Positions 4,860 to 64,000 of a stretch of DNA of 64,000 nucleotides are shown one piece after another. The notes under the pieces are model-generated. The model ran no database searches. It was not told the origin of the DNA and saw only the letters and a program-made list of their open reading frames with translations. The position numbers and the translations under genes were made by a program. The DNA is from Norana najaformis. Lineage: Eukaryota; Annelida; Clitellata; Crassiclitellata; Hormogastridae. The stretch spans positions 50,050,530 through 50,114,529 of the forward strand of contig OZ029914.1 of the NCBI GenBank assembly GCA_964023275.1, in the 5' to 3' direction. Position 1 is the stretch's first letter. Each line of letters begins with the position of its first letter.

Positions 4860-5860
4860 CTTCCCAAAACAGACCACCATATGGCGCATTAAGACAATGC
4901 GTGTGGAACATTGTGTCGGAGAACTGATGTTGTTCTAACCTAATTTAATCGTGTCTTAACTATCAAAATAGTCTATTGGCGGAGATTAGTTGTAACGGTG
5001 TCAAAGAATTTAATCAATACAAACACCAATTTTAGCACTGATCAGACTTATATAAACGATCTATGCAATGTAGAGGAACGTTATCTGCTTATTGGTGGGC
5101 TATGGATCAAGGAGCACACTATGCTGCACTTCGTCAGATGGGCTAGATTTAAATTTGTAGAAGCGGCCCAAAAACCAAGCTCTGTGGGACACAAATGGAA
5201 CTGGCAGACAGGACCAATCAGATCATAATCAAATGCCAATTAATCAAATATTCCTACGAGTTCATAACCAACGTCACCGCCGTCCCATCCAGATAATAGA
5301 CCATGTGAGAGGAGAACATTGGGAGACTGGAAACATTCATGATATGGCAAAAGTTTAGTACAGAAAAGTCCGATGAATCGAGAACAAAATTAACCAAGTG
5401 CTGTAAACGGAGAACAGAAATCGGTAATACCTAGGCAAAAATACAGTATGTAGACACACAGAGGAAATATCTTGTTGGGGCACTTGTAGTTCCAAATTAA
5501 ATTAAAATGCAAATGCTTTTCTGAAAGAGTCTCAAATTCAGTCTGAAACCTATAAACTTAAATCTACAGCATCCAGTACAAAATAAGAGCAATTTCACAT
5601 GTTGCTTAACTGAATTAAATCATGTTGAATAAGAGAGATTTTGTAGAGATAATTTCGAGAAAGAAACAAATATACAAACCATCTTACCACGAATTTCAAG
5701 CATTTCTCGTTTTTATCTATTCTGGCTTGCGTAAATATCTTATGCAAACACAAAAGATCCGCCTGGCTAACCATAATAACATAGCCAGATGCACAGACGC
5801 TAAACAGTAACAAAAGCTGCAACATACATGAGTGACATATAGTTATACTGTTTGATGGTA
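4860..5860. other. No gene recognised
   Basis: Short open frames only. 5595-5860 is the inverted counterpart of 29270-29530 and lies just upstream of the V2 leader, so it may be promoter-proximal sequence of the V2 module. 5000-5460 shows nothing identifiable. Confidence 0.5.
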
Positions 5861-5870
5861 TCATACCAGA

Positions 5871-6680
5871 ATGTGGCTACTTGGATTGCAACTTTTCGTG
5901 CTAGGTAAGATAGGTGTACATTTGCACCATGTACTTAAGACGAAAAAACTGCCTGATGGTCTTGTGATAAAGCGTTTAGCAATATCTATGTAGTTGAAAT
6001 TCGGTAATCATATGAAACTAGAATGATGTTTATAAAAGGTTGACTTGGTGCTAACAAATATCAGTGGATATGCAATGCAGTTGAAAATTGTTAAACGACT
6101 GCTGGACTCTACCCGACAAAAGCTCTTAACAAGAGCATAACTCCCTTACTATTTTATAGAATAGTGATTGGATGTGTTATCAAGGTAAACCTTACATCAT
6201 GTAATTGAGTTTGGACGAAAAAGAAGTTGGCCAGTGAAAAGGTTACATGCTATAGAAATTCTTGCATGCATTTGATACTGGAACATTGAAATTAATCAGT
6301 AATGTTCCATTTTTAAATGAAAACTTATAGTATGGTATTTGTAGTTGAATCTGTATTTCACAAGACTCCGTCAAACTCGGTCGCAGTTGTTGGACAGTCG
6401 ATGACGCTTGAGTGTTGGACAAGTCCAAATGAGACGACGCAATGGAATTTTAACCGACTTGGTCAAAAGACGACATCGCTTATATACAACGGTGACGCAG
6501 TCTCAACCAACTTTACATCCAGATTCCAGGTAGAAAGATCCACAGGGACTGGTCACCATGATCTCACAGCCAGTAGCGTCCTCATTGCAGATGCTGGAAT
6601 CTACGAATGTGTTGTACATTCTAGAGAAACCCCGGATCGAACAAATCCAATTGCAGCAACTGCAGAATTAGTCGTCCTAG
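5871..6680 (+). CDS. V2 module: signal exon plus V-type Ig exon upstream of gene A
   Basis: Exon 5871-5904 encodes a Met-Trp leader (MWLLGLQLFVL). Exon 6345-6680 is 112 codons, phase 1-1, with LEC, TTQW and DAGIYEC, so it is a complete V-like Ig domain. The domain is distinct from Ig1 but built the same way. No transmembrane or tail exon follows before gene A, whose Ig1 (10351) and Ig2 (11918) are both phase-compatible. It may be an alternative first exon set for gene A, or an orphan module. Copies exist at 140-475, 56780-57090 (broken) and 60381-60574 (broken). Confidence 0.7.
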
Positions 6681-6849
6681 GTAAATAAATCTCAACTGAT
6701 TTCGCAAATAAGTGTGTATATGGAATTTTTTGATTAAAACAGGCATTAAGTAACACTATGACATGTATAGTGCACCAGCTTATTAACCAGCGCTGCGTAA
6801 AGTCAGAGAGGTTTGACCAAACATACCATGTGAAAAACAACATACGGTT

Positions 6850-7550
6850 GCCAGAAGACCAGGAGAGAGGGGGTACTGAGGAGGTGGGTTGAGTTTAGGT
6901 TAAGAAAAATGGAAGGGGCCCATTGGATGGACCAGATAAGATTTCTTGAAAAGGTCAGATCAGTTTTGAAATGACTACCTAAGGAGTAACAGAAAGAGGG
7001 GATTGAGACAGGTGATGATGGGTGAACGACGGAAGGTATAAAACAGATAATTTGATAAATCCAGGATGGAGATCGTTCCAGATTCGAGGTGCAGTGTTGT
7101 ATATGGATCGTTTAGAGAACTTAAGATAAGTAGTTACTGAGGGACGGGAAAAGTGAGATGAGTGATTGTGCTTATTTCAATTTAAAGAAAACGTAAAATA
7201 AGATTTTAAGCAAATTGGATTGCATAACAATTTTGTGAGATACTTCATCTCTTCTGTAAAATACTGAAAGGCGCTTCATAATACATTGCAACATATCTGA
7301 AGGTGAATTTATTGCACGCCGGCTGTAGTGTTGGCGGGAAAGTCGACATTAAAAAAGTACTTTGTGTAACTTTTGTTCAGATTTGATCTGGATGCAGGTG
7401 GTGCGACATTTTGTTGTCAAACTCTTGATTAGTCTGTTAGTCTTCCCGTTTGGATGATAGTTTGGTTTTTTGAGCGCTTTTGCTTTCTTGTGAGCGTTTT
7501 ATAACCTTTTGTGTTGAATCTTCTTGTAATTTTTCGTGACAATACCTAAT
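6850..7550. other. Spacer, possible repeat debris
   Basis: G-rich stretch 6850-7170 looks like degraded transposon sequence without a readable motif. 7440-7510 carries the TTGTGAGCGTTTT-type repeat also seen at 28640-28700 (other strand) and 60930-61010. Confidence 0.4.
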
Positions 7551-7554
7551 GCAC

Positions 7555-8161
7555 TCTACCAAGGACAATCAACTGGGCGCTGTGTCGATCAGGTTTTTGC
7601 TGTCTTGCTCACAACGAATGATTAGATTTCGGCATCATCCAGTTGACTTGAATTGGAGCAAAGATCTACAGAACTATGTCATCAATAATGAAGCCAATAG
7701 GTGCATTATTAATCTCTTCAACGTCCGTCATATTTATCCAAATCGAAGTAATTTATATTTTAATGGTCTTAGAATCGTTCAACCGCGTTCATGGCATAAG
7801 TTGTCTATTTTAAATTTCATTTAAATATTTTGCTCGACTGTAAAAGCCATAATGCATCGGCCAGCAGGAAAGTTTCTATTTCCTTTAAGTCTTTGAAAGG
7901 CGACAACAAATGGCGATAAAGTGCAAAATAGATTGATTCTTAATTGATTGTTTGCACAACGCAAATATCAAAGATGATGCTCTACCCAAAAAGCTGAAAA
8001 TTACATCATGACACAATATTCTTATTTTATTTCTGAGAGAAAAAGTATTTAAAAATTCGATGAAAGTCTGATAAAATTGATAAGCTAATCATTCAAATAT
8101 TGTGGCTTACCTACTTACCAATAAGAAAAACTAGTTGAAAATAAACAGATGACTCCCACAT
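7555..8161 (-). pseudogene. Decayed antisense signal plus Ig1 relic between the V2 module and gene A
   Basis: Leader 8161-8119 is intact (MWESSVYFQLVFLI, GTAAGT donor). The Ig1-like exon lies at about 7835-7558; the region of GIYTC has become a stop (TAC to TAA) and the cysteine is lost. No further exons follow on the minus strand. Confidence 0.6.
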
Positions 8162-9600: not shown

Positions 9601-9727
9601 AACTTTTGGCAAAATATACAGGAAGGAAAGTCATTGGTCAATAAGAAATAGTCAAGTGTAGCAAGCTTTGAAATAAGACTGCAAAATAGCTGACAAAATA
9701 AATTTGATCACGTCTGCGTTGCAACTT

Positions 9728-10052: not shown

Positions 10053-10095
10053 ATGTGGAAACCCCTTGTTCTTTTTCAGCTATTTGTTCTATATG
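10053..10095 (+). CDS. Gene A signal-peptide exon
   Basis: Short hydrophobic leader beginning Met-Trp-Lys-Pro-Leu, ending with a phase-1 G before GTAAGT. The Met-Trp start and length of 43 nt recur in genes B, C and D. Confidence 0.85.
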
Positions 10096-13000
10096 GTAAG
10101 TCATTTATAACATTTACCAGGATTAGCGTGATTCCACTAAATATCAAATTCACAATGATGTTTATATTATTATGGCTGTTTTAGTGTGTGGTTATATATA
10201 AACCAATGATGTAGATATGCCTGGTTTGCCATTAGCATTTTTAAGTAGAGCATTATTTTTGATAAGTTCGTATATCATAATAATTATAATAAGTCAGAAA
10301 AAGTTCAGTCGAATACACACCCCTCCACTCAAGTATTATCCTATTTCCAGGATCTTCAGAAAGTGTTAAGTTTCCTGATCGTCCATGGAATACGGCTGTT
10401 ACTGTCGGTCAAAGAATGCAAATGAAATGTAAGGCCGACAAAGTCAGGGAGTGGACAATTAAAAGACCATTCACTGACAAGAGAACAACGATTTGGATAA
10501 ATTGGATGTACGAGGCAAGGCTGAATAATACACATTTTGGCATCTATGTTGACGAAAGTGGTTCTGTAGAGCTCTACTCCAACTCAACTCAACTTTATGA
10601 CTCAGGAATCTACACCTGTGTTGTTAGCAAACATAACGACACGATTACACGACAGCAGCCTGGTCGTTTCAGCGCCCAGTTGATTGTCTTTGGTAAATTG
10701 TCATGTAATCTCATGCTTTTAAATCTTACATTGCCTTTCTTTAAAATAACATTCGCATAATTGTCATGAAATTTCTATAAAGGCTGTAACGATTACGTAG
10801 CCATCAAATGACAGATAAGGTATTATAGAGTTTCATTGTCTCACTGCTGGTGCAGATGGAACAAGTATTACTTTTGGAGGTTGAAGTAAAGGGTAGAGAG
10901 GTTAATGCCTTCATTCTGGATCTTAAATGGAAAAAGAGCAAGATCCGGACCACCACATGCTGGAGGTTAGGGGTGCCTTCACTTACCTGACTGATACCTC
11001 ACTGATCTGGTAACCAAACAGTACTCAGTTGATCCCGCGAACAGAATATGAAACGCCTAATCGCAATTACCAGACCTTGGAATAATATGACTAGATAAGA
11101 ACATCTGGCGATCCAAAATTGGGCTGAACACCAAGCTGCAGCTCTGTTGGCTGTAGTTTTGGAGGTAGTCCTGTACATTCGCGAGACTTTTTCAACCACA
11201 CAGGCTCTGAATCAGAAAATCAGAAGTCGACACCTTTGACATTTGGTGTCTCAGTCTCTATCATAGTGCAAAAAATGCGGATTGCGTTTCCCCGGGCATG
11301 TCGGATGTGCTCCAGAGGACGAGATACATCGAAGAGCATTGTAGATTGCAATGATCAAGCTCCCAAGAGATTGTAGAAGACTACATGGACAACCTAGGAA
11401 TACTTGCACTATACTCGTGGAATACGATCCGAAACCTTGAATCTCAACTTTCTTACAGCATGGAAGAAGGTCTAAGATAGAGTAGCTTGGCGCCACATCG
11501 TCGCCGCGGTTGCGTTCAAATGATTTCGCGCTCGCGAGAGTTTATAAAGCTATTTAATAGCATCTCAAAATCGCATTTCTTTGGCCTGTTTTCATTCCTC
11601 TAAATTAAAGCAGTATCATGTTGTGATTCCATGACTTGTCGGCAAAAATGTTCATTATCAATAAATTCCCGATCGTTGAGTGGAACTTCCGACTTGTTGA
11701 ACTGGCTCACACAATTACGAGGTAACAAAACTTAAGCTTCAATACATTTCTTAATTTTTCTGGAGCAGGTGTCCTGTTGCATAATTTGAATTTGTAAGAT
11801 TTGGATTTATACTGAATTTTATTGTCACTGTTTAAAAGTGTTTCATTATTCCACTGACTTAAGCCTCCTTGTCAAACCTCGAGACATGTGACAACATCAA
11901 CTTGTTGCTTTGTTTAGAATCAGAACCACAGTGCAGCATGAATATGTCTGCAGCAAACGGTAGCATCAAAGAATTCGATTACCTTTCATTCGGATGTGCA
12001 GTCGTTTACTCTGGAGAATGGACTCCATCCATGCAATGGTCCATAAGAAGGAAATCTTTCAACAGAACGCCTCTGGTTACAATTAGCAATATGTCTCATT
12101 TTGTGCAACGTGTGTCGTCAGTTATTATTTTGCAAGTCAGTGCAGAAGACAACGGTGCAACGATTATTTGCAAAACGGGGTTCAGTGATACACCGAAAAA
12201 GGTCCACTACACCAATGCCACCAATGTACCAAACTACTCGTTTTACTGGAATACTACATTAAACGTTCACTGTAGGTATATTTATCGTTCGTCTACGCAA
12301 TTGATTTCTGGCTAAATATTCCATAAAAAATAATCATCAATTGCGTCACTCCGATTTGCATAGTTGCGATGATGCTTTCGCTCAGCATCGTTCCAGCATT
12401 TTTGGCCACAAACACCAGGCTAATCATGCTAAGTGCTTGCGTGTGGAACAAAGACAAATCAACTTCATAATCATCATTAACATAATCATCATCACCATTA
12501 ATGGCATGCACCTCTCCGGAGCTCTGCCGTTCCCACAGCTTTTGCCAACCGTCCCCGCATAGGTGATTTTTTAAAGAAAGAGGTGCATAAATGAGGATTT
12601 GTCCCCTTCTTAAAAAACTTCACTACACCAGAACATACAGACTACATATAATTTGGAAACCGCAACATGCTATTATCATTATTTCGTTTTGGTGGCAGTT
12701 ATTTCAAAGGATACACCTTTTTTCTTAAACATTTTTATGGCTACGCAGTTGTCGGCCTACAATACGAAAGGTTCTGCTTTTGTTACCATTATGCAATGTA
12801 AGGTCAGGCGTTAACATTTCCTTTGAGTAATATAAAATATTCGGTAAATATTCAGTAATTATAAAAATTAAGTTCTTATTCTGTTTTCATATATTGTTTT
12901 ATTAATATAAATTTTGTTTTAGGTCTATATTTATATTAAAATAAATTCTTAAACTAAATCTTTTTTATCCTCGATTTCAGTCGGAGCGAGGAATGCTACA

Positions 13001-16000
13001 ATAACTCCTCGAAAGAATAAATATTCACAGGAAGACGTATTAACCTGTACCGGTTATGGCAATCCAAGTCCCTCATACATCTGGAGAAATGTGAAGACAC
13101 AAGAGAGAATTGCAGTTGGGCCTCAGTTAACCTTAAATAACACTAGAATAGACAACAGTCAACGTTACACCATTGAATGCATTGCTGAAAATCACGTGGC
13201 CAAACAAATCAAACATTCTACCGCAATGATCGATGTTGTAATCCAAGGTATTATGACATGAACAGCTTAGGATTTCTGTCTGTTTGTACGTATGCATGTA
13301 TTTATGCATGTATTTATGTATTTATGTATGTATCTATGTATTTACTATATGTACATGTATTGTATGTATTTATTTATTTATGTATGTAGTGTATGTAGTG
13401 TATGTATGTGTGTATGCATGCATGTATGTACGACCGATGAGAGCGGTCTCAGACCTCTGGAATGAATTACATGCATGACAACGCTAAACGCCGTCTTGCT
13501 TCTATGACCAAAGAGATTAAGCGTAGAATCTAGTGTGATTTTTTGCGGTCTTTGGATATATCGTTCACGCTAATGTAACGTAATCAGATTGTACAAATCT
13601 CTTCAGCTGAGCTCATTATTAGGCTATTCCTAGCTCAGCCGTTTTGACATACCGCTTGTGTATTTTCAGTGACTTATATCTAACCTCTTGTTAATTATTC
13701 AGGCATCGATCTTTCATACATTACTCTCTCGATGGGAATAATATGTGCCATTTTGTTGGTAATCGTAATTGTTATCGGCAGAGAACATGTAAAAGGTAGG
13801 CAAACTATTGTTTACTTCCACGCGTAAATATGTTGCTAAGTGAATGGTTTTGTAATGTAATGACTTTATAATTGTAATGTCATCTACTGAAGACAATTTA
13901 TAGAATATCATAAGTAGCGAGCTACTTCTAGACTGTTTTACAATGTCAGTTGCCTGCCCAAGCACTAAGAGTTACCTAGTAAACAGGATAAGAGTTACTT
14001 AGTAAAATAGAATTTCAACTGTTTTAAAACTTGAATCTGTGGAATTGTGTCACAAGTGCTATTCCTGATCAGTTAGTAACCAATTTTACTGCATTTCTCA
14101 ATTTAAAATTTGTTTGTACTCTTAAAAAACAGTAAGTTTATTTGTTAATATTAACATGAAAGTTTAATCAATCAACCAGTTGCACTAGTAGAATCATAAC
14201 TCGTAATATGTTTAACGGCAGGCCTGAGGAAAAGTCTGTAAGTAAAAATATTTGAATGTAATAGCCGCCAATAATAGCGCATGTGTGATAGATTGTTATT
14301 CAATATAATGGATCACTTTTTAATTACTTGTTGTAGGATGCATTGCTAATACTGTTTCTGTGTTCCGACGAAGACAGGGTACTGAGCCGGACATCCTACC
14401 GAATGCCGATGAAAATCAAAATGGTCTGAGCAAGAACTGCAATATCATATCATTAAACATAATAGAGTTACTTCACTTTAAGCTGTATAGTAGACTACTT
14501 CTTATTCGCTGTATGAATGATAAGCAACATTCATTCTTCAACCTTCGTGGCATTATTCCTATCTGACTCTGTGCTTTTGTCCTAATTTGCCTCCAAAAGC
14601 GGTTATCTGTGCGACTACATACTTATTGGGGATGGTGTATCCAATTGTTTTCAGGCAGAGCTTACAATTACGAGTTGGAGCCTTATGGACACTATGTGAT
14701 GCCAGCAGAAGCCGGGGCTGTTGGTGAGCAATATAATTTTGCGAGTGAAGTGTTTTAATTTATTTTATATGCATCACAAAGTAATATTAAACTCTTCAGC
14801 ATCGTCGTAATGAAGGTTATCCACTGATAGCCAAGTGAAACCTATCCTGAAAATGAGGTCAGATGTTATATATAGACCCATTATTCGGTGTTACTTTCGT
14901 ACTTGTCCTACCGCGCGCACATGCAAATAGACTATTTCAAATGCAGTGATCGAAACACATAATATATCGACCTTGGTAAAGTAGGCTTCTTTATAACTCC
15001 TTAAATTTAGACTAATAGCTATTTATGCTAACTTTTACGAACTCTGAGATGCTTACTTTACATAAACAATGCAAACAATAACATGGCCAAATAGTTATAA
15101 ATAATACGGCATTGTTTTAAAGGCAGCATTCAAATCAATTGGTCTAAATATTATTGATATGACCAGACCCCCAGGTTCAGCTATTTTTATATGTATAGCT
15201 ATTTGTTTAGTCAAAATGGAGACCAAAAGTTACCGACAGTATTTGATTGCTATATATAAAATACATAAACTATCTGCACTGTACAGTTGCAGACTACAAT
15301 TTTAGGAACTTGCAAGCCACAGTATGTAATCTGTTACAAAGAAATTACTTTTAAAAGTTTAAACATTTTTCCAGGAAACGCTCCGAGACAACGACTTGAA
15401 AACGAAATTGGATGCCACGCCGGTGAAAATGGTAGGTTCACAGCCAAACATTAAAACAAAACAAAAGTATTTTAACGCCTATTTGTATTTTATTACAATT
15501 TTTCTCTACCATTTAATTGAGCCAGTATGTTTGCATCGCTCAGTGCAAAAGTTTTTTAATTCTGTCTAAAACAGCAGCCACGGGAGAGACTATTGCTGTT
15601 TATTCGTTTTTGTCCCAAAGAGAAATTTCTCATAGTCCATAAATTGGTCACGCGTTTTTGGTTAGGTTGAAGCCGATCCCATGATCGTGCACATAATGGG
15701 ACAACTTTGGTAGATTATAAACATAATGAAGACCATCTTTAGATGTTTGTTTTTGAAAATTTTCATATTCCTGGTAATGAAGAACAACGTAATACGTAAC
15801 ATGCGCAACATTGACTCCGTAAACTACTTTAACGTACACATTGATGTATTTTAAGGGGCTGTCATGTTTGTTTTAGACCAGAGAGATGAACCAGAAGTTC
15901 CGGTGTATGCCGAGATCAACAAACCTTGCAAATGTCAGTATGTCATTTTAGAGTAGGCATGCATGCTGAATATTTATATTGACTACTAACAAAGAGTGTC

Positions 16001-18860
16001 AATAAACAGAGTTCGCTGCACGATTGTAATAGGTCATTTCTAAAGAGCCTTTAGGAACCTTTACTTCCGAGAACACAGCAATCGTTATAGTTAATACAGG
16101 CTGTTTGGTCGTTTTGAAGGTCTAACCTTGAATGTACTTCTGTATAGCGCCTCTTCAAGACATCTCCTCAGAAATGTTTCCGACCAGAAAGCTCAAGATG
16201 AACATCGAATAGAACTAGTAAATGCTTGACAAAAATTCTAAACATTGGCTATATATTCTTCTCATATTCACTTAAGTCCGCATTTACCTTTAGAAAACGA
16301 GTGACTTTGTCTTTTTAAGATTTCATTGTCCACTGGACAAGCACGACTAACTTCATTTAGTTAAGGCAATTAGGCAGTCTCGGCATTTCCTGTGAATTAT
16401 TCGGAAACAAGTTGAGAGGACGATCCAGAATTGTGGATTTCCTCTTGTTTTGCTTTTTAGCTACCACAGAATTATGCATTCAGTATGACAATATAAAATG
16501 TAGGCCTAGTTCTAACATTGCCTTCCTGAAAATAATGACATCAAGTAAGGTCGACGTCAAAGGCCCTTACAGCCATAAGATGTCGTAAAACAGATTCTAG
16601 TTTAAAATACTTCTATCATCGTTACTAATAGAAAAATTGAGTTATGTGACGGTATAAATTGTTTTCGTTCAATGTTAAATTGCAACCTCATTGCTGGCTA
16701 AAGATTGGAATACATACACTCACTTTTGAAGCAGTGGAAAACTTAATCTGTAATTGCTGAAATCAACTTTTTCAGGCAGAACAACTGAAGCAGCCGCTTT
16801 ATGTCAAGCGCAGACACTTCCCGTTGACTCGAGAGTCAAGAAAACGGCATACGGCTAGTTTTCCATTTTTAAATTGGCTTTCTCTATATTTTGAAAACGA
16901 ACAAAATTATTATATTCGGTGCTCAATAACTGACATGTTCCACCAATTGTGGAATTAAACTAGAAATAAAAACCATAATATGATCTTATTTAATAGCTAT
17001 TTCTAGTGTTTATTAGTGCGGTTTTAATAGAGTAAAGACATCTGTAAAATATAACTTTTTCCAAGCTGATACATCTGTACCAATTTCCTATGACATTTCC
17101 AAATCAAACATTTGGTGCTTTTGAAAATATTCTGGTGCAAATGATTACTTTCTGCCAATTCATGAAGCTGAACATTAGTCTGCTGCCTAGAATTTGAATG
17201 AACAAATTTCGTCAATCATTATATCAATTTAATTTATATTCTTTTAGTCAGTTGAACTATAGATGTTACATTATACATAAGGTATGAGTGTATTTTTTAT
17301 AAAAGCATAATTGTATTCTTGAACAATGAGCATTTATTATAGAGATTGGTCTTGTAGGCCTACTTGATTCCACGTTAAGAATACATTTATACTGTTGAAG
17401 TTTTCTTAATAAATTTAATGTAACATCTAATCTAATGACCTCTATAGCGCCTTTATCAAAATGCCAAAGGCATCAATCGATGGTCGCTTCAAGTGAATTC
17501 GTAATCAAAATAACAATCTTTTGGAGAAGAGAGTTCAAAATCCGATATGTCAGAGAAACCAGCAATTGGCTATAATGCGTATGCGAGTTGAAAGAGGTGA
17601 GTCTTAAGTCATAAGTGCATTTACATGTACCTGTGATTATACCAGACAGCATTAAGTTAAGTTTTGCAGCATCGCAACATTCTGCTTGTTATTACTGCAA
17701 AATTTTTTACAGACAACAAAATTGAATCGGCCACCTTGAGTCAATCGCAGACACTTCCTGTTGACTCCAAAATCAAGAAAAATGAATATGGCAAGTATTT
17801 AAGTTACTCAAACTTTATCCTGATATGTAATGGTAACCAATTTTTAGTCTACAAACTGCATACAGTTAGAACTTGTACTGAGATTCTTGAAATCAGCTGT
17901 GTATCTTTTAAATTTTAGGAATCATTGCATATAATAAAAGTTGTAGTTGAATGCTTTATCGGTATTCTTTTGTTGTCTTAAATAGTTGCAACCGAATGCA
18001 AAGCTGATAGCCCATCGGATACCGCAATGAAGCCGTCAACAACAAAAATGGCAAGATAAGATTAACACTGTCACAAATCTTTAAAACATTTCAATATCGT
18101 AGCATGTTATAAACTATTGCAGCGCTTTTCTGAGGTACTTGAACAGCGGTATATAAAGTGTCTCGATACATATATGCTTATATACATCGTATTTGTTTCA
18201 AGTTTTAAAATGAAAGTAAGCCTTCATTTTCCTAGAGGAACGTAGGGGAGGCGCTCTCTACTCGCTTTTCGGCACTTTAGCCGGTTATAGACGAATCCAA
18301 AGGTCCTTGACATGGACCTACGCATTACAGGCCTTGCCGTTTATTTTCCAGCTTACGCCAGTACCAAATTCGTTTGCTTTGTGTCAGCCACTTTTGCCCA
18401 AACAACTTGTCCAGCGTCGTCAAAGAGAGTCTGCTCAGCAGTGCGAACCCGCAACGTTTCGATCAAGGATCCAGTGCTCTATATGAATAGACAAAATTTG
18501 CAAAATGAGATTAGGAGATGAACGTTTCATTAGTTGAGACTTTCAGTTCATGTGATGGTTTAACCCGTCAGTGATGAAGCATTTTATTTTGCGGTTTATT
18601 CTTTGCAGTTCCAAATAGATAACTGTTGTTCGACAAAATACTTTACAACTACGTCAATCATCAGTTGTGTGAAGTGTTGTGGCTTTGATTTTAAGAGTGC
18701 AGGACTTGACGGCACAATCTATGCCGAACTGAAGACAGATGGAGGTCTTCATGTGTCGCAGGCTTCTGGATCACGGTTTCAAGAGCCATTGTTCAACAAA
18801 TCGTATTACGCTTGTATTGACCACACAACTGAACCTCCGCCACCTCCACAAAGAGACTGA
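10053..18860 (+). CDS. Gene A: three-Ig-domain transmembrane receptor, A/C-type tail
   Basis: Exons: 10053-10095 signal peptide, 10351-10692 Ig1, 11918-12271 Ig2, 12981-13247 Ig3, 13703-13795 transmembrane, then tail exons 14337-14423, 14655-14723, 15375-15431, 15877-15933, 16776-16853, 17713-17790, 17986-18050 and 18696-18860 (TGA). Every intron is phase 1 except the last (phase 0), and the exons sum to 585 codons including the stop. The start is the ATG of the Met-Trp signal exon, shared by all paralogues. Domain order is signal, V/I-like Ig1, Ig2, I-set-like Ig3, membrane helix, long cytoplasmic tail. Tail motifs are YVMP, VYAEI, TIYAEL and YACI, with a PPPPP run near the C-terminus. Donors after 17790 and 18050 are GC, and the donor after 14423 (GTCTGA) is weak, so tail splicing is the least certain part. 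Likely a type I membrane receptor; ligand unknown. It is convergent with gene B. Confidence 0.85.
10351..10692 (+). CDS. Gene A Ig1 exon
   Basis: 114 codons, phase 1-1. The core is visible: MKC (first Cys), REW (core Trp) and DSGIYTC (second Cys). N-glycosylation sequons include NNT and NST. Opens after TTTCCAG and closes before GTAAAT. Confidence 0.9.
10850..11520 (+). mobile_element. LINE relic in gene A Ig1-Ig2 intron
   Basis: C-terminal LINE fragment. The most telling piece is LNFLTAWKKV then DRVAWRHIVAAV. Present in the same intron and orientation in B, C and D. Confidence 0.6.
11918..12271 (+). CDS. Gene A Ig2 exon
   Basis: 118 codons, the same length in all four genes. Cysteines in QCSMN, FGCAV and IICK, core Trp in SMQWS, and an EDNGATIIC motif instead of the usual DxGxYxC. 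Several sequons (NMS, NAT, NYS, NTT). The donor is GTAGGT. Confidence 0.88.
12462..12500. repeat. (ATC)n microsatellite, gene A Ig2-Ig3 intron
   Basis: Short impure copy of the run shared by all four genes. Confidence 0.7.
12981..13247 (+). CDS. Gene A Ig3 exon
   Basis: 89 codons. I-set-like: LTCTGYGNPSPSYIW supplies the first Cys, the GNP turn and the core Trp; YTIECIAEN supplies the second Cys. It ends VVIQ with a phase-1 G. Confidence 0.88.
13280..13432. repeat. (TATG)n microsatellite, gene A Ig3-TM intron
   Basis: Starts 30 bases after the Ig3 donor. The same repeat follows Ig3 in B (23735-23945), C (38530-38620) and D (52735-52830, 51740-51850). Confidence 0.85.
13703..13795 (+). CDS. 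Gene A transmembrane exon
   Basis: 31 codons: short juxtamembrane GIDLSY, then a hydrophobic helix (ITLSMGIICAILLVIVIVIG) followed by basic and charged residues REHVK. This sets Ig domains outside and the tail inside. Confidence 0.9.
15877..15933 (+). CDS. Gene A tail exon with VYAEI motif
   Basis: 19 codons, phase 1-1, acceptor TTTTAG. Encodes PEVPVYAEINK. YAEI is a YxxI SH2-type motif resembling an ITIM, but the -2 residue is Pro, so it is not a strict ITIM. The homologous exon in gene C has lost its acceptor. Confidence 0.75.
16776..16858 (+). CDS. Gene A duplicated tail exon, copy 1 (possible terminal exon)
   Basis: 78 nt if spliced at GC (16853), or terminal with TAG at 16856-16858. 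It is a paralogue of the exon at 17713-17790: both share CAGACACTTCC and encode QTLPVDS followed by KK. Gene C keeps the same in-frame TAG, so this could be an alternative end giving a tail without the TIYAEL/polyproline exon. Confidence 0.6.
18230..18525 (-). mobile_element. tRNA-derived SINE in gene A last intron
   Basis: On the minus strand the head resembles a tRNA with A-box and B-box-like segments (GCGGGTTCGCA type). The same element sits in the same intron of gene C. Confidence 0.45.
18696..18860 (+). CDS. Gene A terminal tail exon (TIYAEL, polyproline)
   Basis: 54 residues plus TGA. Contains TIYAEL (TxYxxL, like an immunoreceptor switch motif), a second tyrosine in SYYACID, and TTEPPPPPQRD at the end, a possible SH3 or WW ligand. 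Enters in phase 0, matching the ATG end of 17986-18050. Confidence 0.75.
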   Translation, partial: SAGLDGTIYAELKTDGGLHVSQASGSRFQEPLFNKSYYACIDHTTEPPPPPQRD

Positions 18861-22276: not shown

Positions 22277-22575
22277 TCACTCAATCGCAATATTAACATA
22301 GGCTGAGTCCCCATTTCTAACCCTTTCTGGAGGGACTACAACATGGCTACTGTTGGCTTCCAGTGAAGAGTAAACAAGTGGTTGGTTGACAACAACGGGT
22401 CTTTCCATTAATGTGTTGTAACCCTCAGCAACAGCTTCAATTGGAGCATCTTCTGTGTCGGGTGTCGACGATGTTGATGCCGATGTGTTGGTGTCTGCCT
22501 CGTGAATTGACTCGTAATCTATCGATAGACTTTGAGGACTCTCCTTGGCTACATTTGCTTTGGTTCTGGGTTTCC
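22277..22575 (-). CDS. Gene B cytoplasmic tail exon (ITIM / ITAM-like / YVN)
   Basis: 98 residues plus TGA in one exon. In order: SIDYESI, a Ser/Thr-rich acidic linker, EGYNTL, LVYSSL, SSHVVV and SAYVNIAIE at the C-terminus. The YxxL pair is separated by twelve residues. Gene D has the same layout. Confidence 0.87.
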
Positions 22576-49840: not shown

Positions 49841-49924
49841 ACTATAAACAAATGTATCCACCAAAAAAAGATGAACAGTTTTGAAGTATTATCTGTTATA
49901 TGACTCATTAAGATGATAAAATAT

Positions 49925-50778: not shown

Positions 50779-51077
50779 TCACTTAATCGCAAAATTAACG
50801 TAGACTGGGGCCCACTTTGTAACCCTTTCTGGGAGGACTGTAGCATAGCTACTGTTCGCTTCAAGTGAAGAGTAAACAACTGGTTGCTGGACAATAACGG
50901 GTCTTTCCGTTAATTTGCTGTAACCCTCGGCATCAGCTTCAGCTGGAGCATCTGTTCTGTCGGGTGTCGTCGATGTTGATGGCGATGTGTTGAATTCTGT
51001 CTCGTGAATTGACTCGTAATCTATCGACAGGCTTTCAGGATTCTCCTTGGCTACATTTGCTTTGGTTCTGGATTTCT
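50779..51077 (-). CDS. Gene D cytoplasmic tail exon
   Basis: 98 residues plus TGA: SIDYESI (ITIM), EGYSKL and VVYSSL twelve residues apart, SSYATV (a new SxYxxV site; gene B has His instead of Tyr), and PVYVNF (YxN type). Confidence 0.87.
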
Positions 51078-53632
51078 CTATAACACAAATCGTTTGATTC
51101 ACCTTCATTTTAATAACATTTGATACTAATAGAAAAACGAGAGCTATTAATTTTAGGGGTAGATAACAGAGAATTTAACACCAGGCGTTAAAACGGAATA
51201 AGAGAATTTTGAAGTACAATTTTTTGCTTGCGAAGTGCACATATGAATGAAAACAGCCATTATTGTAGAAATATTGCTGCAAACATAAGCATATCATAAA
51301 GTCAGAACACTCTAAGCATCGAGGTAAGCAGTAGAGGCATCTAATGGTCGGTACCTGAGCGGAGTTTCTTCGGGATGCATCTCAGGATGAATACTGCAGA
51401 CAGCGTGAAGAAAATGCCAACACCGGCAGCTATGATGTAACCATATGGTAATTGCCAAGATCCTAAAATAAGAAGGTATTAAATGTGTAGGAACTTTTAT
51501 TAGTTAGGCCAATATTTGTCAATATTTATATGAATTATGCTTGCCACAACATCGACCACTGCATTGCCACCCCTACCAGTACCACTAATACAACAACAAC
51601 ACGAATGTCACAAGCAGTCCTACTAACTGGACTTGTAAAACCACCACAAGTTACGTTCTCTTCTTATGTCAAGACGCACCTTCGACAGGCAATTTTAAAA
51701 CGGTTTAAGAGATCCTTAAAGGGTATATACATGTACGCTCAAAAACATAAATACATACACACATATTCTCATACATACATGTACATCCATGCACAGAAAT
51801 ACATACATTCATACATATATACATCTATGCACACATACATACATGTATATATAAGTAAGTCTTCAACCCTCTCTGAAAACCTCGATGAAAAGATCCGGAA
51901 CGCGGAATTCAGCGGGTAGTGCATTCCACATCCTTGGCCCAGGCGTGTTAAAAGAAGTTCTTATACGCATGGCAGTGGCCCTTCCATACCACACCAGGTC
52001 ATGGTTCACACCACAGCATAACCGGGACCCCCCGGAGTTGAAGAGGCCAGTACACGGTCCCTAGCCAGGTACGGTGGCACCATCCTAAAAACAAATGTCG
52101 CAACCTTGAAGAAAATCCTCCTGCGGACTGGCAGCCAATGCAGCTCCCACAGCACAGGGGTATTGTGGTCGAATTTTCACTCACCTACAACGAACCTGGT
52201 AGTGGCTTTCTGCACGCTTTGCAACCTCCCAATCCCTCCGTACAGCAGGTTGTTGCAGTAGTCGAGTCTACTAATTATGAGGGCCTGAACGAGGCTCTTT
52301 CTGCAGTCGAGTGATAGCTACGATCGGACCTGTCTCAGCTGACGCAGCTTGAAGTAACACTTCCTGCAGACATTTGCCACATGTTTTCCCATCGTCAGTC
52401 CACAGTCGACAATAACACCCAGATTTAAGTGTCACTGTCGATTGGGAAAACATGTGAACAGCTTGTGAACAGAGGCACAGCTGATGACTGCAGCTGAAGC
52501 GCGTCAGTCGAACCGTGTCTAATTTTGCTCCTATCGAGATGAACTGCGTTTTATCGACATTCATCTACAAGCGATTGCGACCCATCCAATCCTCGATGCT
52601 TGCAATGCAATCAGCAAAGCGGTGGGCGGCCGATGAAGCATACACGGCTGGAACGCTGAATTATATCTGAGTATCGTCGGCATCACAATGCGCCGTCAAT
52701 CCCCTCCCTTCAGTGACATAATATACATACGAATATTCAAGCATGCATACATACAACCAACCATCAACACATGCACACATACATACATACATACATACAT
52801 ATTACACACACAAGTACATACATCCTAAGATGTGCATGCCATATTACCTTGGATAATAACAATATCGATCGTTGCAGAAGAAAGTTTGATTTGTTCGCCC
52901 ACGTGATTTATAGCAATGCATTCAATGTTGCAACGCTGATTGACTGCTATTCTAGCTTCATTTAAGGCTAACTGAGGCCCAATTGCAACTATCTCTTGTG
53001 TCTTTGCATTTCTCCAGGTGTACGAAGGACTTGGATTTCCATCAGCGGTACAGTTTAGAACGTCTTCCTGTTGATATGTGTCTTTATTCGGTGTTATTTT
53101 AACATTTCTCGGCCCAACTGAAATGGAGAAAAACATATAATCTGAGACTTTATTTATTTAGGCCTAATAGAAATTGCTATTAATAATACAGACTGAGGAA
53201 ACACAGAACAAAATGTTAAAGTTGTACAATTATTCGATTGTAATAATTATTGAATATTTGTCAAGTATTTTCAATGACGCAAGATAAAAATGTTCACGCC
53301 TGAATTTCATAGTGCAATACAATTATAGTGGTAACAAAACAGAACTGTTTCGTGTTGTACAACTACGCAGCCATAAACAACACTATTTAATAAAAACGTT
53401 TTATACTTTGAAATCACTGTAGCAAAAACGAATTTATGCTAACATTATATTGCGGTCTTCAAACTCGCATGTAGCCTGTAAATTGCTATGTAGTGAAGAA
53501 GTTTTATTAAGAAGGATTCAAATTCACATTTATAAACTTCTTTTTTTTTCAAAATTCACCTATGCTGGGATGGTTGGCAAGAGTCGCTGAAACAGCAATG
53601 CTTGGTAAAGGGGCACGCCACTGATGATGATG

Positions 53633-53663
<31 letters not shown>

Positions 53664-55461
53664 CGGTGGGGTTGATGATGATAATAATGATGAAGATATA
53701 TTGTGGTGTCACACCTCAGCACCTTGCTTGATTAACCTGGTCTTCGTACCCAAAATGTTGGAATGATGTTAAACGAGTGCGTCGACGCAGCTGTGCAAGT
53801 CGTTGTGATTCAAAGGGTGATTATTCTATATGAATATTTAGTTAGAAACTACATGATTAAACAGATTATAAATACACTTACAATGAACGCCCAATGTGGT
53901 ATTCCAATAAAAAGAGTAGTTTGGCACATTGGTGGCATTGGTGTAGTGGACCTTTTTCGGTGTATCACTGAACCCCGTTTTGCAAATAATCGTTGCACCG
54001 TTGTCTTCTGCACTGACTTGCCAAATAATAACTGACGACAAATGTTCCACATCATGAGACATATTGCTCTTTATAACCAGAGGCATTTTGTTTAAAGCTT
54101 TCCCTCCTATGGACCATTGCATGGATGGTGTCCAGTCTCCAGAGTAATTCAGGGCACAATTGAGTGAAACGTAGTCGAACTCTTTGATGCTACCATTTGC
54201 TCCAGATATATTCATGCTGCACTGTGGTTCTGATCCTGGGCAAAGCAACAATTGATGTTGTACCATACTTCAAGGTTTGACTAAGATGGTTAATTAAGTG
54301 AAAAAATAATTCACTATTTAAACTATTACAAATAAAAATCCATAAAATTAAAATCCAAACCTTTCAAATAGGTCACTTGCCCCAACAGTAAAGTTAGAAA
54401 CGTATTTAAGCGTAATTTTTGTTGCCTCAGCCGTGGAGAGCCAGGTGTTCTAGTCCAGGGATAATTGCAAGGTCGGATTATTGCGATTAGACATTTGATC
54501 TTTTGTTTGCTGGATCGAGTGAGCACTGTTTGGTTACCTAGGTAGGTTAAGGCATCCACAACCTCCAGCTTTGCAATGCGTGGTGGTCTGGATATTGTTC
54601 TATTTGTTTGATATCTAGACCGACATTAACCTTCCTACCCAATTTTGTAGCTCCATAAGTAATAATTGTTTCATCTCCGCAAGCAGTGAGACAATAAAAC
54701 TCTATAATTGATTACCGGCTATATAATCGTTACGGCCACTTATAGAAATTTCCTTGCAAAATGTAATTATTATGCTAAAGAAATGTATCATAAGATTTTA
54801 AACCCATGGGATTACATGACAATTTACCAAGGACAATCAACTGAGCGCTGAAACGATCAGGCTGGTGTCGCATTGTCGCGCTGTAGTGTTTGCTAACAGC
54901 ACAGGTGTAGATTCCAGCGTTATCAAGCTGAGTTGAGTTGCAGTAAAGCTCAACAGAACCACTTTCGTCAACACATAACCCAAAATGTGCATTAATTAGC
55001 CTTGCTTCGTCTCTCCAATTTGTCCAAATCGTTGCTATGTCGTCACTGAATGGTCTTTTAATTGTCCACTCGGTGACTTTGTCGCCCTTACATTTCATTT
55101 GCATTCTTTGACCGAAAGTAACGGCCGTATTCCATGGACGATCAGGTAACTTAGCACTTCCTGAAGATCCTGGAAATAGGACAACACTTGAGTGCAGGGA
55201 TGTGAATTCGACTGAACTTTTTCTGATTTATTGTGATAATTATAATGTAAGAGCATATTAAAGATAACACTCTACTCAAGAATGCTAAGACCAGACCCGG
55301 GATATCTACATCAATGTTGTTTATATTCAAATACAAAAGCAGCCATAATATTATAAACGTCTTTGTGAATTTGATAGTGGAAACACCCTAATCATCGCGA
55401 ATGTTATAAATGACTTACCATATAGAAAAAATAGCTGAAAAAGAACAAGAGACTTCCACAT
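50779..55461 (-). CDS. Gene D: three-Ig-domain transmembrane receptor, B/D-type tail
   Basis: Exons in transcript order: 55461-55419 signal, 55169-54828 Ig1, 54235-53882 Ig2, 53117-52848 Ig3, 51462-51355 transmembrane, 51077-50779 tail with TGA. All introns are phase 1; the sum is 472 codons. Paralogue of gene B in every exon. Ig1 has two extra cysteines (FGLCVD and LYCNST) at positions different from those of gene C. The tail keeps SIDYESI, EGYSKL and VVYSSL, gains a tyrosine in SSYATV, and ends PVYVNFAIK. The Ig3-TM intron holds a LINE relic in gene orientation. Convergent with gene C; upstream lie a broken V2 module and block R. Confidence 0.87.
51355..51462 (-). CDS. Gene D transmembrane exon
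   Basis: 36 codons: GSWQLPY, helix GYIIAAGVGIFFTLSAVFIL, then RCIPKKLRS. Same frame and length as gene B. Confidence 0.85.
51740..51850. repeat. (CATA)n microsatellite, gene D Ig3-TM intron, distal part
   Basis: Separated from the proximal part (52735-52830) by the LINE relic, which apparently inserted within or next to the repeat. Confidence 0.8.
51860..52730 (-). mobile_element. LINE relic, gene D Ig3-TM intron
   Basis: Same LINE family as 38690-39530, in gene orientation. The end of its ORF survives (MWNALPAEFRVPDLF then IEVFREGLKTYLY) near 51940-51865. Inner parts match the C copy, including the region encoding its inverse of IHLQAIATHPILDA. Confidence 0.65.
52735..52830. repeat. (CATA)n microsatellite, gene D, proximal part
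   Basis: Directly after the Ig3 donor on the minus strand. Confidence 0.8.
52848..53117 (-). CDS. Gene D Ig3 exon
   Basis: 90 codons: LNCTADGNPSPSYTW and CNIECIAIN. An extra Cys replaces the usual Tyr two residues before the Ile of IEC. Confidence 0.88.
53613..53695. repeat. (GAT)n microsatellite, gene D Ig2-Ig3 intron
   Basis: Shared with A, B and C. Confidence 0.8.
53882..54235 (-). CDS. Gene D Ig2 exon
   Basis: 118 codons. The first codon is Gly rather than Glu because the exon opens GA after CCCAG. Core QCSMN, LNCAL, SMQWS, EDNGATIIC; donor GTAAGT. Confidence 0.88.
54400..54690 (-). mobile_element. LINE relic in gene D Ig1-Ig2 intron
   Basis: Shortest copy of the intron LINE relic, matching the 5' part of the copy in C (36100-36300). 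Confidence 0.5.
54828..55169 (-). CDS. Gene D Ig1 exon
   Basis: 114 codons with MKC, TEW and DNAGIYTC. Cys replaces Tyr or Phe in FGLCVD, and Cys replaces Ser in LYCNST; the two sit on neighbouring predicted strands. Confidence 0.9.
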
Positions 55462-55815
55462 TTTGCTATAGGAACAGGCTCTGTCTTTTGTCTAATGCGT
55501 TCGAACAAAACCCAAGTTTGTATTCACACTGTAAAGGCTCGCATTTAAACAAGTGTTGTGATAGCAACTGGCGTAAAAAGGCTTTTGAAAGCCTATATGT
55601 TAGTTTAATGAGAAGGATCAAAGCGAGTATGTGCAATAAAAAACGTAAAATGGACTGTTAGAATCATCATGGCTTGTAAAATGATAAAATGTTAATGCAT
55701 ATGACATGTAATTATGCAGACTGAGAATAGAGAAACACACGTCATTTTAGACGCAACATCAATTTTGGGCCTTATCTTAAGAGACAAATATGGGTCAATT
55801 TTCTAGAAGTTGCAA
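55462..55815 (-). promoter_or_regulatory. Conserved 5' flank of gene D
   Basis: Same block in gene orientation; the TCTGCATAATTACATG motif is at about 55704-55720. Confidence 0.5.
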
Positions 55816-55964
55816 CGCAGGCGTGATCATATTTATTTTGTCACTCGGCTATTTTGCAGTCTTATTTTGACCTGGTTAAGTAAGCTTTACTCCATATTGA
55901 CGAATGACATTCTTTCTTGTATGTTTTGCCAAAACTTTTCGGAAAGTTGACCTATTCCTGATAG

Positions 55965-56105
55965 TTATCTTGTCTTGTCTTGTCTTGTCTTAAACCGTCC
56001 TAAAGCTGAGGATTGTCTGCACCACGGACAATTTTGTGTCATCTGCTTCTGACCCTTGTCTTCATTTATAACTGGTCAAACAATCCTCGACTTTCATGCA
56101 ATTGA
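55965..56105 (-). mobile_element. LINE 3' stub upstream of gene D
   Basis: Only the last 140 bases of the LINE seen upstream of B, starting with four TTGTC repeats. The rest has been replaced or deleted. Confidence 0.55.
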
Positions 56106-60375: not shown

Positions 60376-60380
60376 CGGTG

Positions 60381-60574: not shown

Positions 60575-61054
60575 GTAAATGAATCTCAAGTGATTGCGTA
60601 AATAGGTATGTATATTATATTCTTTAATTGAAACAGGGATATGTACCGGGATATGTCACACTATGACATGCATAATGCATTCCCAAAACAATTTTGCATA
60701 GACCTAAAGCATAACACGACTCTGCGCCAAATTATCTATACTTATCTTTTATGAATTGAAATACTGCTGTAAAACGCATGGTTTTAAACAGCAAAATACC
60801 TTAATTCATTTTCGTAAAGATTTATTGTGATTTATAAACTTGAATGTTACGCTGCTGTGGTAATATCATTTAGCTAAGAGTATAACGAAGAATTTACAGG
60901 ACCACTTTTGGACATTTATTGGACATTTCTTTGTGAGCCGTTTGATTCATTTTGCCACCGTTCTAGTTCTTTTGCGAGCCGTTTTGGTTCTTTTGTGAGC
61001 CGTTTCTCGTCACCTTCTGTGGTGGGCGTTTTGGTTATTTTTCGTAACAAAACG

Positions 61055-61668
61055 CAATACAATCTACCAAAATCAATCAACTGGGAGCTGTATCGATCAG
61101 GTTTTTGCTGTCTTTTCCATAACGAATGGATTTCGTCATCTTCCATTTGAGTTGAATTGGACTAAAGATCTACAGAACCATTTCGTCAACAAAGAAACCA
61201 AAAGATGCATTATTAATCTCTTCAACGTCCCTAAAATTTGCCCAAATCGAAGTATTCAATAATTTAATGGTCTTTGAGTTGTCTATTCGCGATTTTTGTA
61301 ATGTCATCTATTTTACATTTTATTTACATCATTTGCCAGACAGTAAAAGCCATATTGCAGCAACCAGCAGGCAAATTCCACTTCCTGAAATTCCTTGAAA
61401 TTCGACAGCAAAGGGCGAGAGAGTACACAATAGGTTGATTCCAGAGTAGTTGCTTGCAAAATGCATATATCACAGGTAATGCTCTTTTCAAAAAGCTGAA
61501 AATGATATTGTGACAATTAATTTTCTTGTTCTTTAATTTATGAACAATAAGGTACTCAAAATTCGATGAATAGCTGAGGAAATTGATAAGCTAATTAATG
61601 CAAATATCGTGTCTTACCTAATTACCAAATAGAAAATATAGTTGAAAAAGAACATAGAACTCTCACAT
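61055..61668 (-). pseudogene. Antisense signal/Ig1 relic upstream of gene E
   Basis: Leader 61668-61626 is 43 nt but reads ATG-TGA. Ig1 relic at about 61285-61060 shows DDEIHSL where DxGIYTC is expected, so the second Cys is gone, and it ends SSQLIDFG. Confidence 0.6.
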
Positions 61669-61689
61669 ATTGCTGAAGGTGTAGGTCTA

Positions 61690-62810
61690 TTTGTTTTTAT
61701 TTTGGTGAACCCTTAAACAAAGCTTAATTTATATCTTAAACAAGAGTTTTCATGTTGTCACATGTAGAGTTACAACATGAAAAATGACTTTTCATGGATG
61801 TCAGTTGGTTTCACAAGTAGACGATCGGTCGAAGAAAATGTAAAACGGTAATGCGGAAATAATGGTGGCCCTCGATGTGATATTGCTTATGGCTTATAAT
61901 TATGCAGACGGAGACTAGAGAAAGAAAAGTCATTTTCGGCACATTATCAATTTTGAGGCCTACCAATTGAGACTAATATGAATCAGTTTGTTATAACCTA
62001 CAACACAGCGGCTACGCATTTCACATTGTGTCTATTTGCATAGTGAATCTCATATCTGTCTGTCATATCTGTCAGTCTGTCTAACTGCATCTCTCTCGCA
62101 TTTCTCTCTCCCAAGTCGTCTTTACCAGGACCTACTAAGTGCAGTAAATTAGTCGAAAAAAGCACAGTACTGAAGGACGAACAACTGAGCATCGTAATCA
62201 AATTCATCTCTGGTTTAACGAAGCTTAATTAGGCCCACTATTTCGCAGTCAAAACGATTTTATATAATTCAGAAAATTGGCATCAGGACAGGACACGCTT
62301 TTACCTAATTTGACATTAAATCAACTATACAGTTCGGAAAATGGAGAAGGAGCTTTGCCCAATAAAATAATAACCAAATTATATTAGGTATTTTGGGTTT
62401 CGATGAGGGAGCCTAATCAATGTTAAGCATTTTATGTCCACCCTTAACACCACAGATACCCCAGTGCTACCGTGGAAGCCGGAAATACATTCATTTACAC
62501 TAGAGTAAAAATAGTATGATGTGATAGCCAGGCAGAATTTCGCCACGCCACAAATCCTAGCGGAAACTTCTATGTCTTTGGAGAAAAGTGCAAAGGTTCT
62601 GACTGGTTTACTTGAGAGTTGAAACGATTGTGACACTGCAAAGATCAAAAAAATAAATCAGACTAAGTTGGTACAACAACTGAGAGTTGTTGACGAAATA
62701 CGAGAGGGAAATACGAACAGCAGAGTTTATTACATATTTATCGCAGTTAATAAACGCAACTTTTGGAGGCCAATGTAAACTATTATGTAGTGCGTGTAGT
62801 CCACATAACG
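61690..62810. other. Spacer upstream of gene E
   Basis: Paralogue of 33060-34110, with the same relic flank motif at 61896-61911. No gene seen. Confidence 0.5.
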
Positions 62811-62814
62811 TTGT

Positions 62815-63510
62815 ATGAATGAATTTCTCAAAGGACTCACCAGTCTCCAAGTTGGAAATCATGGCAACTGATGGTACAGCTGCAGAGTATAAGGTAATCA
62901 ACTGGAGCAGATTGACTTATTTTCATATCTTCGTTCACTTATAACCGAAGACTCTTTCTTCAGTTAACAGATTCGGTTCAAGACTGGTAAAGGACAAGGT
63001 GTTGTGCAGCATTATAGTATGTACGGAAAAGCCACGGCATGCTTGCAACAGAGATACGATTTTTGAAAGCTCTTGTATGGCCAGTGGCAACGTATGGTTG
63101 TGAAATCTGGACCATAAAGAAAGGTGGAGGCAAGAATCAACGCATTTGAAATGAAGTGCCTGCGGCAGATAAAAATACGGTGGACTGCTAAGAAAACAAA
63201 TGAGGGGGTTTTAGAGACGGCAGGAGTAGAGAGGAGTTTGCTGAGAATAATCAAAAACAGGAAGCTTTCATACTTCGGGCACGTTTGAAGAAAGAGTGTA
63301 GACTGCTTAGAGAAAGAGGTATCCAAGGCTCAATTCCTGGATCCCGAGCTCGGGGAAGACCCAAAACGACATGGATCGATAACATCAAATCGTGGATTGA
63401 ATTATAGTTCGACCAGTTATAACTGAAGACAAGGGACAGAACCAGATGACACAAAATTGTCCGTGGTGCAGACAATCATCAGCTTTAGGACTGTTTAAGA
63501 CAAGACATGA
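62815..63510 (+). mobile_element. LINE C-terminal fragment upstream of gene E
   Basis: Paralogue of 34120-34840 with more breaks; includes the codons for WTAKKTNE, GVERSL and the PKTTWIDNIKSWIE end. Confidence 0.65.
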
Positions 63511-63659
63511 TAACTATCAGGAATAGGTCAACTTTCCGAAAAATTTTGGCAAATATACAGGAAAGAAAGTCATTCGTCAATATGGAGTGAAGCTTACTTA
63601 ACCAGGTCAAAATAAGACTGCAAAATAACCTCTTGACAAAATAAATTTGATCACGCGTT

Positions 63660-64000
63660 GCAACTTCTAGAAAATTGACCCATATTTGTTTCTTAAGATA
63701 AGGCCCAAAATTGATATTGCGTTTAAAATGATTTGTGTTTCTCTATTCTCAGTCTGCATAATTACATGTCATATGCATTAACATTTTATCATTTTACAAG
63801 CCATGATGATTCTAACAGGGCATTTTACGTTTTTGATTGCACATACTCGCTTTGATCCTTCTCATTAAACTAACATATAGGCTTTCAAAAGCCTTTTTAC
63901 GCCAGTTGCTATCACAACACTTGTTGAAATGCGAGCCTTTACAGTGTGAATACAAACTTGGGTTTTGTTCGAACGCATTAGACAAAAGACAGAGCCTGTT
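63660..64000 (+). promoter_or_regulatory. Conserved 5' flank of a fifth gene (E) beyond the right edge
   Basis: Matches the C and D flanks to within about 20 bases of where the leader ATG should be. The window ends just before it. Implies another plus-strand receptor gene. Confidence 0.65.

Follow-up and report, generated by a model that had tools for sequence, protein, structure and literature searches.

The 64,000-nucleotide stretch of the Norana najaformis genome analysed here (assembly GCA_964023275.1, contig OZ029914.1, C2:50050530-50114529; hereafter the window) carries part of an array of receptor genes, and the locus as a whole is probably a row of head-to-head receptor gene pairs, in which the two members of a pair share their outer parts, signal through two different tails, and together set a threshold of recognition. 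The structure of the genes, the alternation of their strands, the existence of two tail classes, and the recent similarity of the ectodomains of opposite-strand neighbours in two of the pairs are directly evident at the level of sequence. A complete gene would encode a single-pass surface receptor with a signal peptide, a V-like and two further immunoglobulin (Ig) domains, a membrane helix, and a tyrosine-rich tail, and the predicted Ig folds place these receptors in the immunoglobulin superfamily.

Positions are given relative to the window, with negative values to its left. Flanks of 80 kb on the left and 100 kb on the right, and later another 40 kb, were added, bringing the total to 284 kb including the window. 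Over about 160 kb of window and flanks, there are 12 family members in the order Q-, Y+, X-, W+, V-, U+, Z-, A+, B-, C+, D-, E+. Strand alternation is strict across all 12, which random orientations would achieve, by arithmetic, in 2 cases out of 4,096. Since the run starts with the minus gene Q and ends with the plus gene E, it can be parsed either as six head-to-head pairs, or as five convergent pairs plus one single gene at each end. The 13 kb fetched to the left of Q contain no plus-class tail exon, and in the fetched flank to the right of E there is no class B tail before a distant one at 150.6 kb. Within the window alone, head-to-head and convergent readings are both colinear.

An earlier note on the window had listed A(+), B(-), C(+), and D(-) in this order, with the 5' flank of a fifth gene, E, at the right edge. 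All of this is borne out: the flank of E occupies 63404..64000 (+), its first coding exon is at 64012-64054, outside the window, and all its coding exons lie in the right flank. The note suggested inspection of a larger stretch, which indeed extends the array to the 12 alternating members; it had overlooked gene Z(-) at the left edge, the six members to the left of Z (V, U, W, X, Y, and Q, of which V consists of one Ig exon and is a remnant), and an extra V exon at 6345-6680. Alternation of this kind might also be an artefact of assembly in an inverted repeat region, and near-identical tracts are indeed seen in two head-to-head neighbour pairs. Against this, members other than X/W and D/E differ by 11-26% over their Ig exons and differ in introns too, genes A-E each have a complete frame of their own, and the 244 kb assembled first contain no N bases; we regard the artefact as very improbable.

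Exon borders were set at AG and GT edges in the alignment of copies. The spliced products of A, B, C, D, and E are 539, 470, 521, 471, and 530 amino acids (aa) long, with no internal stops in any of the five, and all have the same architecture, i.e., signal peptide, V-like Ig domain, two further Ig domains, membrane helix, and tail. Both borders are in phase 1 for the Ig and membrane exons, and for four of the six plus-tail exons. Ten copies were compared for each Ig domain: Y, X, W, V, U, A, B, C, D, and E for domain 1, with Z replacing V for domains 2 and 3. All of these Ig exons are open and have lengths divisible by three, and the Ig exons of Q, added later, are likewise free of stops. Eight copies (A, B, C, D, E, W, U, and X) have a signal-peptide exon (MWKSLVLFQLFFLY and variants) about 0.25 kb 5' of Ig domain 1. 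Because splice sites are conserved and frames are complete, chance origin of these genes is untenable. The pooled ratio of nonsynonymous to synonymous substitutions (dN/dS) in Ig exons is 0.41-0.62, i.e., below 1, and there is no sign of positive selection on the Ig domains on average. These gene models agree with the earlier proposal of three Ig domains per gene, one tail class common to A and C, and another common to B and D.

In two pairs, neighbours on opposite strands share tracts of recent similarity. D and E, which have different tails, share a single tract of 94.9% identity over 4,482 columns (51647..56084 on the minus strand in D versus 67859-63404 in E), comprising the upstream flank, the signal peptide, and the three Ig exons; it extends from about 0.6 kb 5' of the signal peptide to 185 bp (D) or 427 bp (E) before the membrane exon. 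The tract shared by X and W is 91.8% identical over 2,375 columns, and their domain-2 exons are identical. Other long blocks between copies are mostly 71-85% identical, and in the outer parts the long blocks are at 81-83% for C/E, 77-82% for B/D, and 77-83% for comparable copies overall. In a tree of the three Ig domains, which covers nine copies (Y, X, W, U, A, B, C, D, and E, with Q, V, and Z left out), X groups with W (support 100/99) and D with E (100/100), while the approximately unbiased test rejects a grouping of the minus ectodomains X, B, and D in one clade (p-AU 4.7e-6). The observed mean ectodomain identity is reached in 2 of 720 permutations of head-to-head partners, and in 31 of 120 permutations of convergent partners.

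The idea that the whole convergent pair was the duplicated unit, put forward in the earlier note, is not confirmed; the array ends, Q(-) and E(+), together with the recent ectodomain tracts, favour the head-to-head pair, and the convergent pair appears to be the less well supported unit. The correspondence between copies beyond exons, also claimed there, holds in part. Self-BLAST of the copies gives blocks of about 71-85% identity that span kilobases, outside exons too, and A, B, C, and D all have a (TGTA)n-type repeat 3' of the third Ig exon; the (TGA)n-type repeat between the second and third Ig exons is listed for B, C, and D, though not for A. As for the source of the D/E and X/W tracts, the single haplotype at this locus is compatible with gene conversion as well as with partial inverted duplication.

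Much of this pattern would also be expected if a family of Ig adhesion receptors had expanded in the ordinary way, through inverted duplication; similarity of the outer parts would then simply reflect recency, with no special division of labour between the tails. Inverted duplication alone is sufficient to produce alternating strands and near-identical neighbours, the dN/dS of 0.4-0.6 indicates moderate constraint only, and four of the six head-to-head pairs have no excess similarity. Such an expansion does not, however, readily account for the D/E tract, whose end falls past the last Ig exon but short of the membrane exon, with tails of different classes beyond, or for C and E, whose tails are 85-95% alike though their outer parts are mostly at 81-83%, or for retention of the tail motifs in all tail copies examined. 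We consider this explanation unlikely.

The two tail classes differ in organization, with the cytoplasmic part encoded by a single exon in minus genes and by six exons in plus genes. They were compared using the standard definitions of the immunoreceptor tyrosine-based inhibition, switch, and activation motifs (ITIM, ITSM, and ITAM). The minus tails (Q, X, Z, B, and D) contain IDYESI or its variant (TDYESV in Q, IDYDSI in Z), YxxL, [LV]VY[ST]SL, and a YVNI-type site, as well as core YxxPhi motifs. All five have two or three strict ITIMs, where shuffled sequences are expected to have 0.24-0.29 (p 0.0004-0.026), and all five have the YxxL-x12-YxxL arrangement. The plus tails, 158-174 aa long and following one membrane helix, have conserved tyrosines and stay in frame up to the stop in seven of seven copies (Y, W, U, A, C, E, and the more distant gene F, see below); their pooled dN/dS is 0.57, and the length differences between the seven copies are multiples of three. 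YAEI/V, T[IV]Y[AT][ED]L, and SxYAxI are present in all seven, and the class has a proline-rich end; in gene A (14337..18860), the motifs are VYAEI, TIYAEL, and SYYACI, and the end is PPPPP. The standard-spacing ITAM, YxxL/I-x6-8-YxxL/I, is absent from all 12 tails examined. As read from the spliced frames, A-E have no charged residue inside their membrane helices.

In the plus-tail model, the donor assumed for the first cytoplasmic exon is an unusual one, GTCTGA (GTCAGA in Y). Another version of this model, in which the tails of A, W, Y, and U finish with a perfect ITAM (YAEI/V-x7-YVxL) at a stop in the fourth plus-tail exon, was dropped, because an in-phase GT[CT]AGT donor is located just upstream and the next two exons keep the frame in all seven copies. 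C, E, and F have an apparent stop after the YAEI stretch in the same exon. The stop in the fourth exon could represent an alternative end.

These motifs bear on the possibility that both tail classes are inhibitory, and that the array is a set of redundant inhibitory receptors for diverse ligands. The strict ITIMs in every minus tail and every plus tail, the lack of a 6-8-spaced ITAM in any of them, and the uncharged helices all speak for it; yet the plus tails also contain YAEI/V and the proline-rich end, and YxxL-x12-YxxL of the minus tails could serve as a wide ITAM. We find such uniform inhibition rather improbable. The same evidence modifies the proposal in the earlier note of a recognition cluster of the paired-receptor type: one type of ectodomain, two tail classes, and recent sharing in two pairs support it, but opposed signalling does not follow, because both tail classes have ITIM-like motifs and no tail has a standard-spacing ITAM.

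Several observations weigh against the interpretation of the locus as an array of head-to-head paired receptors. The permutation signal is due entirely to X/W and D/E; in the remaining four head-to-head pairs, identity averages 84.3%, versus 84.4% for other copies. A single plus tail has one strict ITIM, which is ordinary when compared to shuffled sequences (p 0.15-0.24), so that the weight of this motif rests on its conservation. The dN/dS is 1.07 for the minus tail (4 copies) and 1.29 for the class A membrane exon (8 copies), giving no indication of purifying selection, in comparisons of a few short copies. X is a hybrid, with a class A membrane exon and a class B tail. V is a remnant; Z is just 74-79% similar to the other copies, and has, in place of Ig domain 1, a different V-set exon (140..475, -; the remainder of Z lies to the left of the window, up to -2.4 kb). 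At the expected place, no signal-peptide exon was found in Q, V, and Z, and that of Y is shifted and out of phase. Finally, fragments of Ig exons are scattered between the genes, including those at -69.8, -79.0, and 95.8 kb, some with stops; within the window, broken Ig fragments of the family lie between genes or in introns at 7552-7749, 23262-23408, and 61045-61253, all on the minus strand.

The Ig domains of the receptors differ in how easily they are recognized by profile searches. Domain 1 matches general Ig models with best E-values of 3.5e-6 (C), 4.1e-5 (B), 3.5e-4 (A), and 4.7e-3 (D), and its low-confidence structure model (predicted local distance difference test, pLDDT, 57) matches Ig folds, with TMq of 0.47-0.59 in the 50 matches listed; these include SYG-2, T-cell receptor, antibody, palladin, and telokin Ig domains. 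Domain 2 is weak in Pfam (2e-5 at best, below the curated cut-off), and its structure model is too poor for use (pLDDT 38); among 517 pattern matches examined for viral relatives of this domain, none was confirmed. Domain 3 matches the Ig_2 family at 5.5e-6 (B) and 1.2e-5 (A).

The extra V exon upstream of A (6345..6680, +) is open and flanked by splice sites. It matches the Pfam V-set at 9.4e-11, and its first 60 hits in PDB are V domains of the antibody type (best E-value 3.8e-8). Exons of this V-set type occupy the position of Ig domain 1 in Z, are open upstream of A and Q, and truncated or broken near D, E, Y, and W, with a frameshift near D (56.8-57.1 kb) and a truncation near E (60.4-60.6 kb); no such exon was found near B and C. 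A four-Ig receptor beginning at the upstream V exon was considered and dropped, as the signal-peptide exon was found adjoining Ig domain 1.

The remaining exons within the window are located as follows. In gene A (+), the signal-peptide exon (MWKPLVLFQLFVLY, phase 1) is at 10053..10095, and the same exon occurs in B, C, D, E, W, U, and X; it is followed by the V-like Ig domain 1 at 10351..10692, Ig domain 2, with its weak Pfam Ig match, at 11918..12271, Ig domain 3 at 12981..13247, the class A transmembrane exon at 13703..13795, and six cytoplasmic exons at 14337-14423, 14655-14723, 15375-15431, 15856-15933, 17986-18050, and 18696-18860. Gene B (-) has the signal-peptide exon at 27212..27254, three Ig exons at 26619-26957, 24993-25346, and 23988-24257, the class B transmembrane exon at 22835..22942, and the tail exon at 22277..22575, with IDYESI, GYNTL, LVYSSL, SAYVNI, and the stop. 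In gene C (+), the signal-peptide exon is at 35332..35374, the Ig exons at 35597-35923, 37146-37499, and 38246-38503, the transmembrane exon at 42292-42384, and the six cytoplasmic exons at 42986-43072, 43315-43377, 43948-44004, 44651-44719, 46809-46873, and 47771-47920. Gene D (-) consists of the signal-peptide exon at 55419..55461, Ig exons at 54828-55169, 53882-54235, and 52848-53117, the class B transmembrane exon at 51355..51462, and the tail exon at 50779..51077, with IDYESI, GYSKL, VVYSSL, VYVNF, and the stop.

Between and around these genes, there are transposon-like broken frames in the long intron of C (40207-41630, -), which by eye resemble open frames of 579 and 569 aa at -52.2 to -50.5 kb and 131.4-133.1 kb, and a tandem repeat of 9.6 copies of a 40-bp unit at 49467-49842, in the C-D interval, with none listed near A/B. 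The window has no Rfam match and no transfer RNA. Gene F (101.7-111.3 kb) has a membrane exon and tail of the plus class, its Ig exons are just about 29-40% similar to those of the array, and over 2.5 kb of its outer part it shows 96% identity with an Ig set at 88.6-91.0 kb. A still more distant plus-strand Ig set at 146.3-150.8 kb is followed by a weak match to a minus-class-like tail (E-value 0.008; DYESV, LLYNTL, PYSSL), and for this reason tail class may not be strand-bound outside the array. Other Ig loci were observed elsewhere in the genome. At C15:22574000-22583999 (1094-9165), one of 11 Ig matches listed at C15:22.4-23.7 Mb, neurofascin/contactin-like Ig exons (best PDB E-value 7.4e-22) are accompanied by a hydrophobic stretch resembling a membrane helix, and the tail frame has eight YLDL-type repeats, at least two of them spaced in the ITAM-like manner YLDL-x7-YLDL. 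At C2:11295000-11304999 (3545-5183), 39 Mb away from the array and among 12 Ig matches listed at C2:10.3-12.8 Mb, a V-type Ig exon is followed by a domain that by eye resembles domain 2 of the receptors.

Vertebrate paired receptors (CEACAM, CD300, KIR, LILR) similarly combine related ectodomains with different tails; they are described as including one activating partner, whereas here both classes have ITIM-type motifs and there is no 6-8-spaced ITAM. The KIR and LILR genes are usually on the same strand. The nearest mechanistic parallel is the primate SIGLEC11/SIGLEC16 pair, described in PMC5701461 as head-to-head Ig receptor genes about 9 kb apart, in which gene conversion has kept a tract highly similar that takes in the V-set and C2-set exons together with the upstream region, while the signalling ends differ, and Siglec-16 is tied to an ITAM adaptor. 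The signal-peptide exons of D and E are likewise 8.6 kb apart, and their tract of similarity also ends before the membrane exon. Unlike in the primate pair, there are six pairs in a row here, and tyrosine motifs occur in both tail classes. PDB searches for kinship with Siglecs, made with two exon types only, gave CD22 at an E-value of 0.19 with the domain-2 profile, and antibody V domains first with the extra V exon.

Among invertebrates, the nearest parallel seen is provided by the FF/FcoR pairs of Botryllus schlosseri, despite their different domain make-up. According to PMC12065747, these are adjacent, clustered pairs of Ig-type receptor genes with V-Ig domains, which vary in gene content between haplotypes; FcoR has a sushi domain and, in one partner, the tail carries ITIM, hemITAM, or core YxxPhi motifs, while fester and uncle fester have three membrane helices and no known signalling domain. 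The Norana locus is similar in having adjacent, clustered pairs with V-Ig domains and tails of the former kind, in all five minus tails and in the plus tails too; it is dissimilar in having three Ig domains, one helix, and a tyrosine tail in both partners. The same text mentions Hydractinia Alr genes as allorecognition candidates with ITIM and ITAM motifs.

The resemblance raises the question of whether the locus is an allorecognition cluster, with polymorphic self/non-self receptors whose partners heterodimerise in the manner of the fester/FcoR pairs. The minus tails, too, have core YxxPhi motifs, along with the YxxL-x12-YxxL spacing, and this is in line with such a role. On the other hand, Pfam searches with all Ig exons of A and B, the first of D, and the first two of C gave Ig families, with no sushi domain after the V-Ig, and there is no three-helix, motif-less partner, as the tails of the plus genes contain tyrosine motifs and follow a single helix. 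A role in allorecognition is doubtful. Nothing recognisably of the same family was encountered in the literature covered, which leaves most subscription papers and preprints outside its scope.

Returning to the array of head-to-head paired receptors as the preferred interpretation, its working may be pictured as follows. Gene conversion across inverted neighbours would keep the outer parts of the partners alike, and the members of a pair would for that reason meet the same or related ligands. The minus tails may signal via phosphatases of the SHP type, the plus tails via other SH2/SH3 partners, and the balance within a pair would set the threshold of recognition. The head-to-head interval might also give the pair shared regulation.

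The window, from a genome of 608 Mb in 17 contigs, is 38% G+C with a CpG observed/expected ratio of 0.81, and the genome appears to be of non-vertebrate character because of the latter. Paired receptors with a common outer part and differing tails are a hallmark of vertebrate innate immunity. It is possible, and we suggest it tentatively, that a multi-copy locus of paired receptors evolved independently in an invertebrate lineage, with head-to-head inverted neighbours as the units of conversion; the ligand-binding half would be copied across the pair while two unrelated multi-tyrosine tails remain separate, so that each specificity has two signal outputs. If this is true, the same solution would have arisen outside vertebrates, and be preserved here as an array with visible tracts of exchange, which would amount to a row of natural replicates for asking why partners stay alike on the outside and different on the inside.

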